Assembly (NCBI RefSeq): GCF_022669015.1
Contig: NZ_JAKKSL010000003.1
Span: 124,001 to 188,000 of the forward strand
Direction: 5' to 3'
Length of the DNA stretch: 64,000 nucleotides
Origin: Colwellia maritima
Lineage (GTDB): Bacteria > Pseudomonadota > Gammaproteobacteria > Enterobacterales > Alteromonadaceae
How positions within the stretch are numbered: the stretch's first letter is position 1; every line of letters begins with the position of its first letter. The position numbers and the translations under genes are program-made. The notes under the pieces are model-generated. The model searched no databases, was not told where the DNA came from, and was given only the letters and a program-made list of their open reading frames with translations. Below, piece by piece: positions 1,377-13,187 of the stretch.

Positions 1377-2416
1377 TTATAAAATATATTTTGCTGATAA
1401 CTGTAGATAATTTGAGCTTTTATCCACTTCATTCATTTCAAATTTTCCACTTCAATACCAAAAGAAAGTTGTTTGGTTATATCTTTAAAAAGATTTACCG
1501 CTACATGATTATGCTTAGCATCTGCAAGGTCAGCATCAGTACTACCGTAATATACTGTTGAACGCATATCGTCAGTCCAAAAATGACGGTAGGCCACCAT
1601 AAATGAGGTTGCTTCCTCTACCTCTTCACCAACTAAATCCCTAGCAACAAGCACACTAACGTAACGCCCCGTATTGCCACCATGCACTTGGAAACGAAAA
1701 TCATCCTTGGCAAAGGTTTTAATACGACCGGCAACGCCATAACCAATGGCCGACTCAGTATCACCACCGAGGGTGTTTATTTGTCGTGCTACACCAAAGC
1801 AACTGAAACATTGCCCCAATCACCTTTAAAAGTATATTTTGCAATAAAGTCGGGGATTGAATCTTGACTGCTTTCACCTAAATCAGAATACGGATTTTCT
1901 AAAGATATTTGCAAACCACCATTGGTATAACGAATTTGACCTTGTCTAATAAATGAAGAGGCAACTAGGGGCCCACCAAAGTCAGCAGCTTCAGCTAAGG
2001 CAGTGGTATTCATAAAAGTGGTCCATGTTTGACCTACCATGATATTCTTATACTTGATAAAAGCATGACGTAATCTTGGATTAGATGAGTTAGAGATAAT
2101 TTGATTTCCCCCGCCACCGTAAAAATCTAATTCAATAAACCCTGTAACATCACCATGAACATACTTAGCATTGAAACGAGTTTCATTCACTGTCAATTTA
2201 GTTGTTGAAATATCATCGGTTACCGAAGCAACACCAATCCAATAATCATTATTTGTTTGGCGAGCTAACGTCCCCACTTATGCTTCGCACGTCAGCTTTG
2301 ATATAACCACCAAAAGTGATTTTATCTTCCCCCGTCAAATCAAAAGTATACCCTGCAAAAGAAGGAGCTGAGACCAATGCTGTCAACATCAAACCGGACT
2401 TAATTATATTTTTCAT
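1377..2416 (-). pseudogene. DcaP-like outer-membrane porin, three frame breaks
   Basis: Translation starts at an ATG at 2416 with a signal peptide ending SAPSFA, then YTFDLTGEDKITFGGYIKAD, which resembles the mature start of DcaP-type porins. The frame breaks at a run of four C at 2272-2275; dropping one base restores SGTLARQTNNDYWIG. It breaks again near 1791-1795 (between SVALV and ARQINTLGG) and a third time near 1440-1446, after which EMNEVDKSSNYLQLSAKYIL runs to a stop at 1377. The joined product is about 346 aa, the usual porin size, so little is missing. Porins of this type form trimeric diffusion channels in the outer membrane. Three single-base breaks in one gene could mean decay, but similar breaks elsewhere in the window suggest sequence errors. 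Confidence 0.75.
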
Positions 2417-6355: not shown

Positions 6356-7164
6356 ATGATAACATTTAACAAACAAAAAATAGTCCGCTTACTTTGGTGG
6401 TGGCTGATAGTTATACCCGGTATTCCATTTGTGCTGACCTCGCTAGGATTATTTTTTTATGCCTTTTGGCCACGTGATTTCTCATCGGTTAGCCAATTTC
6501 CCATAGCAAATAACACTGAATACATTACGCTTTCAGCCCATGGCGTTAACGACTCCCCCTCAAGTTGGAGTGACGAATTACAAAAACTAATGAAGCAGGC
6601 TCCCTACCCTCAACTCAACAATATCAATGTACAAAACCATAGTATCGATTGGCAAAATTATGCAAACAATGTGTTTCTGTGCTCGGTTGCAGGAAAAAAA
6701 TAGGGATTGAAATTGGCAAGCATTTAGCGGCTCAATCAAATCTTAAAGCTATTCATGCTATAGGCCATAGTTGCGGATCATTTGTCGCATTAGGCATCTG
6801 TGAAGGTGCAAAATCAATTAATCCGCAACTTATTATACAAACAACCTTTTTAGATCCTGTTTCCGTTTATTCAGGCATTTTTTGGGATTATGGTATTAAA
6901 AATTTCGGCACCTGTGGTGATTTTAGCGATAACTATATTGATACCCGCGATACTGTGCCCGGCAGCAACCAAGCACTGCCCAATGCTTATACATTTGATG
7001 TAACCCATCAGCAAACAGGGAAAGATGCTCAATACCCACCTCATGCATGGCCAACACGTTATTACATTAATGCTTATAACGCTCAAAGTGTGCCATTGCT
7101 ATATAAAGCTAAAATTGGCGAGATTAAACAATTTAAAAAGGGAGAGTTAAATAGTTTACAATAG
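6356..7164 (+). CDS. Membrane-anchored alpha/beta hydrolase, one frame break
   Basis: The N-terminal part begins MITFNKQKIVRLLWWWLIV and forms one membrane anchor (about residues 11-40), followed by ITLSAHGVNDSPSSWSDEL, the usual oxyanion-hole HG region of alpha/beta hydrolases. The second part contains GHSCG, a GxSxG nucleophile elbow, and a late histidine in YPPHAWPTRYY that could complete the triad. The frame breaks at seven A's at 6694-6700. An eighth A would give AGKKIGIEIGKHLA and join both halves into about 270 aa. It is probably a lipase or esterase facing the periplasm. The substrate is unknown, and neighbours give no help. Confidence 0.65.
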
Positions 7165-7961: not shown

Positions 7962-8255
7962 TTATCCTATCGCTTCTGCAGGGTCTATTTTAAGTGCCGC
8001 GCGTATTGCGATAATACTCGACAATATACAAATAAATACAACGGCGAAGAATCCAAATATGGAATCGAGAGGTTCAAGCAATACGTACTTCGGAAAAATG
8101 GGTGCCATAAACAATGTGGCTGATATTTTCCCCACTACAAACCCAATAACACCCAAGGCTATTGCTTGTTGCATAATCATTGCCGCGATTGCTGCAAGAG
8201 TCGAACCTTTGGTTTGTACTAGCGCCTGGTTCGTAGACAGGTACTTATACCCATT
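7962..8255 (-). pseudogene. C-terminal stump of an FtsX-like ABC permease
   Basis: About 72-97 codons remain open. The recognisable part includes AMIMQQAIALGVIGFVVGK, two hydrophobic helices (the last FFAVVFICILSSIIAIRAA) and the end LKIDPAEAIG, which matches the terminal helices and DPAxA tail of FtsX/MacB/DevC permeases. Upstream, the frame runs into the tRNA-Arg-derived repeat (LVQTKGSTLAAIAAM) and reaches a stop at 8256-8258. The other three quarters of a normal permease and any adaptor protein are missing. It looks like a gene cut by the expansion or insertion of the tRNA repeat array. A misassembly at the repeats would look the same. Confidence 0.7.
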
Positions 8256-9031
8256 CTATTAAGCTAATCTCATTTAATTTAGGAACACTCAAATTTCAAG
8301 CGAAAAAAAACCAATCATACGATTGGTTTTTTAGATTCTCATAAGAGAAAAGTGGCGATTGCTGCAAGAGTCGAACTTTTGGTTTGTACTAGCGCCTGGT
8401 TCGTAGCCAGGTACTTATACCCATTCTATTAAGCTAATCTCATTTGATTTAGGAACACTCAAATTTCAAGCGAAAAAAAACCAATCATACGATTGTTTTT
8501 TTAGATTCTCATAAGAGAAAAGTGGCGATTGCTGCAAGAGTCGAACCTTTGGTTTGTACTAGCGCCTGGTTTGTAGCCAGGTACTTATACCCATTCTATT
8601 AAGCTAATCTCATTTGATTTAGGAACACTCAAATTTCAAGCGAAAAAAAACCAATCATACGATTGGTTTTTTAGATTCTCATAAGAGAAAAGTGGCGATT
8701 GCTGCAAGAGTCGAATTTTTGGTTTGTACTAGCGCCTGGTTCGTAGCCAGGTACTTATACCCGTTCTATTAAGCTAATCTCATTTGATTTAGGAACACTC
8801 AAATTTCAAGCGAAAAAAAACCAATCATACGATTGGTTTTTTAGATTCTCATAAGAGAAAAGTGGCGATTGCTGCAAGAGTCGAACTTTTGGTTTGTACT
8901 AGCGCCTGGTTCGTAGCCAGGTACTTATACCCATTCTATTAAGCTAATCTCATTTGATTTAGGAACACTCAAATTTCAAGCGAAAAAAACCAATCATACG
9001 ATTGGTTTTTTAGATTCTCATAAGAGAAAAG
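8187..9031 (-). repeat. Five tandem 170-bp tRNA-Arg-derived units
   Basis: Five units start at 8187, 8357, 8527, 8697 and 8867, four spaced exactly 170 bp and the last 169, differing by only a few bases. Read on the minus strand, each unit has a terminator hairpin (CCAATC / GATTGG with T run), then a degenerate D-arm-like part, then the tRNA-Arg anticodon arm GTACCTGGCTACGAACCAGG. Next come about 20 foreign bases, a T-loop-like GGTTCGACTC and a CGCCA end. The acceptor strands cannot pair, so none is a working tRNA. Copy 3 has a changed anticodon loop and copy 1 a broken stem. The layout recalls the repeats behind tyrT in E. coli, each of which carries a tRNA 3' piece. Confidence 0.9.
8982..9012 (-). 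terminator. Terminator after the proximal tRNA-Arg
   Basis: The stem AACCAATC / GATTGGTT with loop ATAC is flanked by A and T runs, so it can act in both directions. It lies 20 nt past the CCA end of the tRNA-Arg at 9032-9108 and is repeated in each of the 170-bp units. Confidence 0.8.
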
Positions 9032-9108
9032 TGGCGGACGCGGCAGGAGTCGAACCTGCGACCGCCTGGTTCGTAGCCAGGTACTCTATCCGGCTGAGCT
9101 ACGCGTCC
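9032..9108 (-). tRNA. tRNA-Arg (anticodon ACG)
   Basis: All arms fold: acceptor GGACGCG with CGCGTCC, D-arm TAGCTCAGCCGGATAGA, anticodon stem CCTGG / CCAGG around loop CTACGAA (anticodon ACG), T-arm GCAGG-TTCGACT-CCTGC, discriminator G and an encoded CCA. ACG tRNAs are read after A-to-I editing by TadA and decode CGU, CGC and CGA. It is one of two identical copies, and position after csrA and tRNA-Ser matches the serV-argVYZQ locus of E. coli. Confidence 0.97.
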
Positions 9109-9175
9109 GCGGTCATATTTATTTTTTCAGCTTTAATATTAGCTTATCTTTGATATTTATCCACTTAAAGAAAAG

Positions 9176-9252
9176 TGGCGGACGCGGCAGGAGTCGAACC
9201 TGCGACCGCCTGGTTCGTAGCCAGGTACTCTATCCGGCTGAGCTACGCGTCC
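9176..9252 (-). tRNA. tRNA-Arg (anticodon ACG), second copy
   Basis: It is identical to the copy at 9032-9108 in all arms, with anticodon ACG and encoded CCA. The 67-bp spacer between the two copies has no terminator, so they are probably cut from one transcript that may also include tRNA-Ser. Confidence 0.97.
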
Positions 9253-9254
9253 GC

Positions 9255-9560
9255 AATTAAGTTATTTTTTATATCGTTACTTATCCGATATCACGAACCT
9301 TGTTCGTAGCCATTAGCATAAAATTATCTATCCGGCTGAGCTACGCGTCCGCAATCTAAGATATTTTTTATATCGTTACTTATCCGATAACACGAACCTT
9401 GTTCGTAGCCATTAGCATAAAATTATCTATCCGGCTGAGCTACGCGTCCGCAATCTAAGATGTTTTTTATATCGTTACTTATCCGATAACACGAACCTTG
9501 TTCGTAGCCATCAACATGAGATAATCTATCCGGCTGAGCTACGCATCCGCAATTAAGTTA
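9255..9560 (-). repeat. Three tandem 99-bp units with tRNA-Arg 5' halves
   Basis: The tRNA 5' half (GCGGACGCGTAGCTCAGCC on the minus strand) recurs at 9328-9352, 9427-9451 and 9526-9550 with a 99-bp period, in step with the intact gene at 9176-9252. After the D-arm each unit departs from the tRNA, keeps a patch with the anticodon loop (TGGCTACGAAC) and a T-loop-like GGTTCG, then has an AT-rich piece with ATCGGATAAGTAACGATATA. The 3' acceptor half is missing. The last copy has one base change in the acceptor strand. These lie between tRNA-Ser and the working tRNA-Arg genes, so they are probably transcribed as spacer. Confidence 0.85.
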
Positions 9561-9643
9561 TTTTTTATATCGTTACTTAACCGATAAACCTTCTTTTAAA
9601 TCTAAGTTTAAAGATCTTCCCATTAATTACCCTAAGTAAATAA

Positions 9644-9734
9644 TGGCGGAGAGGAGGGATTCGAACCCTCGATCCGGGATAAACCAGATACTCCCTTAGC
9701 AGGGGAGCGCCTTCGGCCACTCGGCCACCTCTCC
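9644..9734 (-). tRNA. tRNA-Ser (anticodon GCT)
   Basis: This is a 91-nt class II tRNA with CCA encoded. Acceptor GGAGAGG pairs with CCTCTCC, the anticodon stem CTCCC / GGGAG encloses CTGCTAA (anticodon GCT, for AGC/AGU), a long variable arm is present, and the T-arm is GAGGG-TTCGAAT-CCCTC. It is placed just after csrA as in E. coli serV. Confidence 0.97.
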
Positions 9735-9875
9735 AATGGGTGCGAATATTAATGGATCTTAAAAATAAGTCAAACATTTTCACCAATTAATTTGTCTTTT
9801 CGTACTGTTTGCTGACAATTTACCCAATAATGATGATTTTCAATCATTATTGAAAAAAAAGAAAGTTATAAACAT

Positions 9876-9943: not shown

Positions 9944-10138
9944 TTAAACGTTTCCAGATGATTCACTATCATCCTTTTCAGCTTGTATACGCATGTAAAT
10001 TTCTTCACGATGTACAGAGACTTCTTTAGGAGCATTTACACCGATACGTACTTGATTTCCTTTAACACCTAACACTGTCACAGTGACTTCGTCACCAATC
10101 ATCAATGTCTCACCTACGCGCCTTGTTAATATTAACAT
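9944..10138 (-). CDS. csrA: Carbon storage regulator CsrA
   Basis: The 64-aa protein [20 protein letters not shown]...[13 protein letters not shown] has the full CsrA fold signature, including the N-terminal RNA-binding strand LTRR and the C-terminal VHREEI RNA-binding patch. CsrA is a homodimer that binds GGA motifs in mRNA leaders and controls carbon storage, motility and biofilm. The small acidic tail ([10 protein letters not shown]) is variable in the family. It lies alone between its own upstream gap and terminator, downstream of alaS as in most gammaproteobacteria. Confidence 0.98.
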
Positions 10139-10560: not shown

Positions 10561-13187
10561 TTAACTCAGTTTTTCAGCCAACCAAGGTTGAACCGACGCA
10601 AGCGCATCTGTGATGTTCTCTGGTTGACTCCCACCTGCTTGTGCCATGTCTGGGCGTCCACCACCTTTTCCACCCACTTGCTGAGCGACCATATTCACTA
10701 ATTCACCCGCTTTAACTTTACCGATAAGATCTTTAGTAACGCCGGCAATTAAACCGACTTTGCCTTCGTTAGCAGTGGCAAGCATAATAATACCGGACTG
10801 CATTTTATTTTTAAGTTCATCAACCATACCACGCAGAGCTTTAGTTTCAACGCCATTTAAATCAGCAATTAATACCTTCACCCCATTAATGTCAATAGCA
10901 CTACCCATTAGGTCTGAACCGGCCTGGGCAGCTAACTCTTGTTTTAACTGATTAATTTCTTTTTCTAAAACTTTAGAGCGCGCAATCAACTGCTCAACTT
11001 TAATATCGACGCCCGCAATATCCGTTTTCACTAATCCCGCGACTTTTGCTAAACAAGCGCCTTGCTCATTAATATAGGCTAATGCGCCTGTTGCGGTTAC
11101 CGCTTCAATACGACGAACACCTGCAGCAATGCCAGATTCAGAGATTATTTTTAATAAACCTATATCCCCTGTTCGTTCAACATGCACACCACCACAAAGT
11201 TCTGTAGAGAAGTCCCCTAAAGTAACAACCCGTACTTCATCATCATATTTTTCGCCAAAGAGTGCCATCGCGCCTTTTTCTTTTGCGTCTTCAATATCCA
11301 TTAATTCAGTGTCTCTCGCATGGTTACGTCGTATCTCGTCGTTAACCATTTGCTCAACATCATGTACTTCTTGTGCTGTCATCGCTTCAAAATGAGAGAA
11401 GTCGAAGCGAAGTTTATCACTGTCGCATAAAGACCCTTTTTGGGTGACATGATCACCTAGCACTTTACGTAAAGCTGCATGTAATAGATGAGTTGCGGTA
11501 TGATTTTTTACAATAGCTGCACGGCGTTCACTGTTGATTTCTGCTTTGACACGACGATTTAAACCTATATCAGTATGAGCAATACCTTTATGCGCAAAAG
11601 CATTACCCAGTTTGATCGTATCTTCAACTTCAAAAACGCCGTTATCAAGGTGTAATAAACCACTATCACCCACCTGACCACCTGATTCAGCATAAAACGG
11701 TGTGTGATCCAAAATCACAATACCCTGTTCACCTGCATTTAATTGCTTAACAGCTTCATGATCATGAGCGTTAAATAATTCTACAACCGTGGCTGATGAT
11801 GTATGGTTTGTATAGCCTTTAAAATCAGTTTTATGATCAGATTTAAGCTGTTGATTATAATCCGTTCCAAATTGACTTGCTTGCTGTGCACGTTCACGTT
11901 GCAAGCCCATAGCAATATCAAAACCGTTATGATCTATATTTAATTGTCGTTCTCGGGCAATATCAGCGGTTAAATCTCCGGGAAGCCATAAGTATCATAA
12001 AGTTTAAATACATCATCACCACAGATGGTATCTCCTTCCAGGTTATTTAATATTTCTTCAAGTAATACCATGCCACGATCTAAGGTACGACCAAATTGTT
12101 CTTCTTCAATACGCAATAATTTTTCAATAATGGCTTGTTGCTGAACTAGCTCAGGATAAGCATCCCCCATTTGTTCAATTAATGATTTTACTAATTTATG
12201 GAAAAAATTATCTTTTGCTTCAAGCTTATGACCATGGCGGATTGCACGGCGTATAATTCTACGTAATACATAACCACGCCCTTCGTTTGAAGGCACAACG
12301 CCATCAACAATTAAAAAACAACATGAACGAATATGATCGCTAATCACGCGTAGTGATTTATTATTTAAATCATTACAGTCTAATAAATTAGCGGTGTCTT
12401 TAATCAACGCTTGGAAAAGATCTATTTCGTAATTACTGTGCACATTTTGCATAATAGCTGAAATACGTTCTAATCCCATTCCAGTATCAATAGAAGGGTT
12501 AGGCAAAGGTTCCATATCACCATTCGCTTGGCGATTAAACTGCATGAATACGATATTCCAGATTTCAATAAAACGATCACCATCTTCTTCTGGTGAGCCT
12601 GGAGGACCACCCCAAATATGTTCACCATGATCATAAAATATTTCTGAACAGGGTCCACATGGTCCGGTATCTCCCATAGACCAGAAATTATCAGATTCAA
12701 ACTTTTTATCAGCCGATTTATCTCCAATACGAATGATTTTTTCTACAGGTATACCAATCTCATCTTTCCAATATAAAAAGGCTTCTTCATCACTTTCATA
12801 GATAGTGACTAATAGCTTCTCTTTTGGTAAACCTAAAACACTCGTTAAAAATTCCCAAGCATAACTGATAGCATTTTCTTTAAAGTAATCACCAAAGCTA
12901 AAGTTACCTAACATTTCAAAAAATGTATGATGACGTGCTGTATAACCTACATTTTCTAGATCGTTATGTTTTCCGCCGCGAACGCAGCGTTGAGCTGATG
13001 TTGCACGGGTATAACTGCGTGTTTCAGCGCCTAAAAAAACATCTTTAAAAGGCACCATGCCGGCATTAGTAAAAAGTAATGTTGCATCGTTACCCGGAAC
13101 GAGGGAACTACTTTTAACTATTTGATGTTGTTTAGTGGCAAAAAAATCTAAAAATGCCTGACGTACTTCGGCGGTGGTTTTAATCAT
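10561..13187 (-). CDS. alaS: Alanyl-tRNA synthetase, one frame break
   Basis: The start at 13187 ([21 protein letters not shown]) and class II motifs are clear: [43 protein letters not shown] and [16 protein letters not shown]. The second half holds the editing-domain zinc site [12 protein letters not shown] and [12 protein letters not shown], then the C-Ala domain ending [12 protein letters not shown]. The frame breaks at 11978-11984: TTC CCG GAG ATT TAA ends the first half at GFPEI, while one extra C or G restores [13 protein letters not shown]. The joined protein is about 875 aa, the normal size. As alaS is essential, the break is very likely a sequencing error. Confidence 0.92.

Follow-up and report, generated by a model that had tools for sequence, protein, structure and literature searches.

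The tRNA operon next to csrA in the stretch of Colwellia maritima DNA analysed here (64,000 nucleotides, hereafter the window) ends in an array of five near-identical repeat units derived from tRNA-Arg. The array is interpreted as the decayed, tandemly amplified tail of this operon, passive in its effect, a reading to which a probability of about 0.6 is assigned. With similar confidence it is regarded as one case of a turnover of tRNA-Arg remnants that takes place family-wide in the csrA - tRNA-Ser - tRNA-Arg operon.

All elements of the operon are encoded on the minus strand in the order csrA (9944..10138), promoter-like site, tRNA-Ser (GCT), 99-bp repeats, two tRNA-Arg (ACG) and the five units. 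The promoter-like site TTGACT-N16/17-TAATAT(T) (9745..9773) is found upstream of tRNA-Ser (GCT) (9645..9735), the first tRNA of the operon, and a very similar string occupies the equivalent place in the four relatives that were read. It is followed by a companion array of three 99-bp repeats and a partial fourth (9258..9587), and by two identical and intact tRNA-Arg (ACG) genes (9176..9252 and 9032..9108), the second of which is the last gene ahead of the unit array. The tRNA genes were called by ARAGORN/Rfam. On its far side, the array is joined to the 77 carboxyl-terminal codons of a permease-like gene (7965..8195, named by eye) whose amino-terminal part is missing and for which no relatives were found at E up to 0.001 in 30 other genomes, its own genome being the sole match of 31. 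The next gene (7957-7247, minus strand), by eye coding an ABC-type ATPase, is co-oriented with the tRNAs.

Tandem Repeats Finder returned a period of 170, 5.1 copies and 97% matches over 8185-9055. The units are 97-98% alike when aligned, measure 168-170 bp each and lie on the minus strand directly 3' of the two intact tRNA-Arg (ACG) genes, which bears out the five near-identical tRNA-Arg-derived units described in an earlier note on this DNA. With unit borders set by cutting at CCA, they correspond to unit 1 (8863..9031, 169 bp), unit 2 (8693..8862, 170 bp), unit 3 (8523..8692, 170 bp), unit 4 (8353..8522, 170 bp) and unit 5 (8185..8352, 168 bp). The start of a unit coincides with the end of the intact tRNA, and its first element, CTTTTCTCTTATGAGAATC, is a trailer hairpin. 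It is followed by a terminator-type hairpin, AAAAAACCAATC-GTAT-GATTGGTTTTTT, by a linker and by a tRNA-Arg remnant composed of an anticodon arm that resembles CCTGGCTACGAACCAGG in each unit, GCGCTAGTACAAACC, the T-loop TTCGACT and GCAGCAATCG, with CCA in units 1-4. By eye, the acceptor stem is gone and the T-stem is reduced. The other half of tRNA-Arg, namely the acceptor 5' strand and the D-arm, is held by the companion 99-bp repeats (9258-9587), which the earlier note did not mention. That note attributed an anticodon arm, a T-loop-like piece, a CCA-like end and a terminator to every unit. This description stands in general, with the exceptions of an altered base in the anticodon loop of unit 3, a weakened terminator stem in unit 4, and a broken anticodon stem and missing CCA in unit 5, which ends in ...AATCGC and then runs into the permease-like fragment.

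The loss of tRNA function proposed earlier agrees with the output of ARAGORN and of Rfam at gathering scores, neither of which calls a tRNA in the units; the sole tRNA-type match, to tRNA-Sec, scores 18.7 bits, far from its cut-off of 47. No further copy of the unit was found outside the array in its own genome at E up to 0.001. The unit hairpins (8984..9011 in unit 1; 8815-8842, 8645-8672, 8475-8502 and 8305-8332 in the others; all minus strand), identified from inverted repeats and sequence reading, are predicted to be terminators. They are absent from the output of a simple terminator scan, probably because the T-run is absorbed into the stem. An internal promoter in the unit was considered and rejected: five 9/12 promoter-like sites lie in the terminator region, and the region has a total of 12 such sites versus 8.0 (sd 2.8) in shuffled sequence.

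It is extremely unlikely that the array is a misassembly or a sequencing artefact. A frameshift in the neighbouring alaS gene and contigs of some relatives that break inside their arrays speak for such an origin, but the units differ by substitutions of their own (seven variable columns besides the unit 5 junction), the array sits within a 544-kb contig, and independent arrays are present in other genomes, that of G265 inside a 4.9-Mb contig. The alaS gene (window 10561-13187) is one gene broken into two frames. Since it is expected to be essential, the frameshift seems to be a sequencing error in this assembly, and single-base indels, among them the differing run length in unit 1, are therefore doubtful. 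Note that two overlapping same-strand frame pairs (window 1433-2277 and 6356-7164), each by eye pieces of one gene, are possibly further indel errors or pseudogenes.

Used as query, a single unit matches 10 of the 39 genomes of the genus at E up to 0.001, its own included. The only relative matching over the full length (71%) is G028 (Colwellia sp. C2M11), in which three units of 185 bp follow the last tRNA-Arg in tandem, i.e. at the same place as the window array. These units keep the D-arm and the anticodon arm, with both bases of one stem pair of the latter replaced (CCTGG/CCAGG to CTTGG/CCAAG); they end in AGCAATCGCCA, or in AGTAATCGCCA in one unit. A likeness of 97-98% inside the window array versus 71% to the G028 array fits the earlier proposal that the units were amplified or homogenised after decay. 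The array, whose possible absence from well-assembled relatives had been raised as an indication of misassembly, does have counterparts in relatives. G021, which is close to G028 (csrA third positions 0.77 and csrA-to-tRNA spacer 0.90 alike), has no unit; the flank found behind the last terminator of G028 directly follows the terminator of the last tRNA-Arg of G021. A transposase-like sequence seems, by eye, to lie just behind that terminator (locus L030, from about 1600).

Remnants of tRNA-Arg were sought in operons taken from genomes with a tRNA-Arg match (35 of 39 in genus g1, that of the window, and 15 of 15 in genus g52), G318 (g52) being left out. The sample comprises 54 stretches, 51 of them with intact tRNA-Arg, from 49 genomes: 34 of g1, 14 of g52 and G041 (g4), which entered via a pattern search. 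When the sequence outside intact genes was scanned for pieces of the D-arm or the T-arm, remnants were detected in the operon of 33 of the 49 genomes, compared with 23 of 510 length-matched shuffles. They are present in 25/34 genomes of g1, in 7/14 of g52 and in G041, leaving 16 genomes without detection, including G021; the scan overlooks G173 (contig break), G015 and G307, all of which have remnants seen by eye. By reading, tandem units behind the last tRNA-Arg were recognized in G028 (3), G265 (7 of 119 bp and a partial eighth), G192 (4), G014 (2 and a worn third), G011 (2), G210 (2 and a worn one), G317 (2) and G123 (2), and at contig ends in G173 (at least 2) and G106 of genus g26 (at least 2), among others. 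G317 and G173 belong to Thalassotalea (g52).

Many downstream remnants of genus g1 form class I (D-arm, ...AATAGAAAGYTGGCTACGA..TGAATCCCTTT.., T-arm, 3' end), while class II, of genus g52, consists of TACCTGGCGCTAATACAAGAGCCCAGGCGG and a T-arm. Other remnants sit between intact genes. In G103 (L109) a second class I copy lies 1.4 kb downstream, by eye with a transposase gene in between. A tandem 421-bp repeat of G024 (L035), composed of tRNA-Arg, terminator and remnant, is an intact-gene version of the same amplification. A second tRNA-Ser is found within or behind the tRNA-Arg cluster in L061, L070, L077, L078, L082, L083, L085 and L086, which suggests that a larger portion of the operon has been duplicated.

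In the sequence of steps and by the route of crossing over that we infer, a surplus tRNA-Arg copy that closed the csrA - tRNA-Ser - tRNA-Arg operon would have lost its acceptor and D-arm portions. The block of trailer hairpin, terminator, linker and anticodon arm/T-loop/CCA would have been multiplied by recombination between repeated tRNA and terminator sequences, and the same recombination would have kept the units alike. The repeat anatomy, the within-array likeness and the presence or absence of units between close relatives are the observed parts of this explanation. In several relatives the remnants, by reading, share their 3' end with the tRNA-Arg of the species concerned (CGCGTCC, CGCGCCC or CGTGTCC), an outcome that exchange with the intact gene by recombination would produce. 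The G021 junction is what terminator-terminator recombination would be expected to produce, or may represent the state before expansion. Within-array likeness, own-tRNA 3' ends and the G021 junction thus point to recombination among the repeats. In the group of G011, G035 and G009, the remnant middle decays about as fast as the linker (identities between G011 and G009 of 0.87 for the linker, 0.78 for the middle, 0.76 for the T-arm end and 1.00 for the D part; 0.72 and 0.69 for linker and middle between G011 and G035). A transcript from the tRNA promoter that passes the first terminator would meet four more ahead of the co-oriented ABC-type ATPase gene, and the effect of the window array is likely to be a passive, repeated termination behind the tRNA promoter.

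The 3' end AGCAATCG differs from the ends of intact tRNA-Arg seen here and recurs in four genera. It is carried by the window, G028 and G026 (g1), G041 (g4), G317 and G173 (g52) and G094 (g9), while G123 (g52) has the variant AGTAATCG. The pattern search for this end matched 9 of 295 genomes, of which G245, G289 and G233 have no tRNA in the fetched stretch; most cases come from this search, which allowed up to two mismatches, and their frequency is thus biased. Derivation of AGCAATCG from the permease-like gene at the array edge was dropped, because the same end is present in relatives whose arrays lack a following permease. A mobile element carrying the AGCAATCG end was likewise rejected, viral contigs showing no exact match and phages no match to the unit.

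The recurrence of this end is one argument for a small tRNA-like RNA encoded by the units or, at the least, by the class I remnants that relatives carry. Such an RNA would be produced by operon read-through and processing, and would either be a decoy that binds a protein handling tRNAs or be a sponge made of spacer RNA, in the manner of 3'ETS-leuZ. This explanation is considered rather doubtful. It draws strength from the class I middle, which is conserved across genera while its flanks are at chance. Model R1, built on class I, also matches genera g9, g22 and g26, with at least 8 members at 65-82 bits among the matches listed; intact tRNA-Arg genes in this family score lower, at about 54-62 bits, and two genomes of g26 reach 56-58 bits, again among the matches listed. 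In addition, E. coli has a tRNA 3' spacer to which a sponge function is attributed in PMC8166272. Against it, the window units stay outside both models, with no match to R1 at E up to 0.01 (the G028 units score 26-30 bits) and none to R2 at the threshold used, and G021 lives without any unit.

Conservation of class I was compared between species whose csrA third positions are only 0.57-0.67 alike. The non-tRNA middle is alike between these diverged species and the linkers are at chance, with identities, computed over the longer block, of 0.89 in the middle and 0.44 in the linker (0.44 shuffled) for G027-G011, and of 0.86 and 0.23 (0.23 shuffled) for G030-G027. Over 33 pairs between members of four different genera, the class I middle has a mean identity of 0.66 versus 0.51 shuffled, with z above 2 in 27 of them; the remnants were picked by a tRNA motif whose letters were then cut out, G009 being left out as it has no motif. 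So long a retention of the class I middle and of the recurrent AGCAATCG end would not be expected of a pure by-product. It is conceivable, on balance with the odds against it, that an old family of tRNA-Arg-derived RNA elements resides in the Alteromonadaceae operon beside csrA, selected across genera and re-amplified in single species as a counterpart of RtT. The window array would then belong to this family as a member that evolves fast, has terminators of its own and keeps the old end AGCAATCG.

Within arrays, variants are not depleted in the tRNA-like part. They amount to 22/498 there versus 30/557 elsewhere over six arrays (Fisher p 0.48), few for a selection test, and to 16/401 versus 23/409 (p 0.33) over the five arrays that exclude G011; one variant breaks an anticodon stem. 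The counts omit the two junction columns of unit 5, the worn last units of G192 and G014, and the class III array. In folding against shuffles, the tRNA-like part of the window unit does no better than they do (z 0.2), while a real tRNA gives z -1.4. One of 16 class I copies folds clearly better than its shuffles (G014b, z -4.3), as do 3 of 8 class II/III pieces to a lesser extent (z -2.2 to -2.8), both of which favor a tRNA-like RNA.

Covariation is weak and speaks against such an RNA. RNAalifold, given 11 class I and 13 class II sequences, found two pairs with two-sided changes per class, with covariation terms of -0.49 (class I) and +0.34 (class II). A first hand-drawn class I fold has 4 two-sided pairs versus 2.3 shuffled, a number reached by 43 of 500 shuffles, with 76% of cells paired, as in shuffles, and other measures near shuffle level. 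A second one has 93% of cells paired and 1 two-sided pair versus 0.2 shuffled, 100 of 500 being as high. Alignments A1 (11 of 16 class I sequences) and A3 (10 sequences, 9 of 14 plus G094) mostly leave out the more worn copies, a bias toward conservation. A fold maintained by covariation was rejected, the signals of RNAalifold and of the two hand-drawn folds on 10 sequences being weak at best. The decoy or sponge role suggested in the earlier note thus finds at best a weak signal in covariation and none in folding of the window part or in the distribution of variants. The window array is accordingly regarded as mainly a recombination product, with about one chance in four for a functional RNA.

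The T-loop-to-CCA region of tRNA genes serves some integrases as site, and this stretch is kept in many remnants, as it would be if the repeats were scars of integrative elements attaching at the tRNA-Arg 3' end. Such an origin is very improbable. The repeated block extends past the tRNA 3' end and includes trailer and terminator, parts not expected to be copied with an attachment block, several classes keep the D-arm or the anticodon arm, and viral contigs and phages lack an exact pattern match and a unit match, respectively.

The arrays show how copies of tRNA genes die and are recycled. Dozens of species differ in copy number, class and presence of units, and even of two close relatives one has three units and the other has none; the function of tRNA-trailing repeats is therefore testable by comparing such pairs. 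The arrays also carry a warning that assemblies break at the arrays of tRNA-Arg operons.

No title on such arrays in Colwellia or its kin was present among the matches listed in a search of the open literature. The RNA 3'ETS-leuZ of E. coli originates from the 3' spacer of a tRNA transcript, a single 53-nt spacer with a sponge function according to PMC8166272. A function is reported in that system, whereas the window units are known from their sequence.

A gene cluster of tRNA-Pro and tRNA-His with pseudogenes was reportedly described in Photobacterium phosphoreum in 1988. Like the window operon, it would be repetitive, contain decayed tRNA copies and belong to a marine gammaproteobacterium, differing in the tRNAs concerned.

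The closest likeness in build is to RtT/rttR of the tyrV-tyrT system of E. coli, where repeats also lie directly 3' of operon tRNA genes and end in a tRNA 3' part and CCA. The parallel with tyrT drawn in the earlier note holds. It extends to the E. coli argV-argY-argZ-argQ operon of tRNA-Arg (ACG), presumably the ortholog of the window operon beside csrA, in which argV, argZ and argQ are each followed by a spacer that ends in the last tRNA-Arg bases. The RtT model gives 41 and 31 bits on two of these spacers, under the cut-off of 45. In E. coli K-12 (L103) the argV-argQ spacers share an RtT-like core and the record annotates no feature there. This core is of RtT type and no sequence likeness between these spacers and the window units was seen. 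To our knowledge, the role of RtT-type repeats behind tRNA genes is open.

Membership of the units in RtT proper (RF00391) can hardly be sustained, even with the same position and idea of repeats behind the last tRNA, each with a tRNA 3' end, and although G104, a genome from the same family, gives two RtT matches, both weak and below the cut-off (34 bits). RF00391 has no match in window 8100-9800 (E up to 10), in ten relative loci (E up to 0.01) or in the genome of the window, G000 (E up to 0.001). The model matches 38 of 197 genomes of the order at E up to 0.001, 26 of them over the cut-off, and gives four matches of 133-138 bits in E. coli K-12, where RtT repeats are found behind tyrT and tyrV. 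The window units are unlike RtT in sequence and have a T-run hairpin that RtT, by eye, lacks. By eye, RtT also keeps only the last tRNA bases, whereas the window units keep the anticodon arm and T-loop. The RtT repeats carry the tpr reading frame. Common to both are repeats behind a tRNA gene that carry tRNA 3' sequence and CCA, the latter in 4 of the 5 window units and with an altered acceptor part. Without a match to the RtT model, the window array represents a second set of repeats behind tRNA genes that is RtT-like in place and build.
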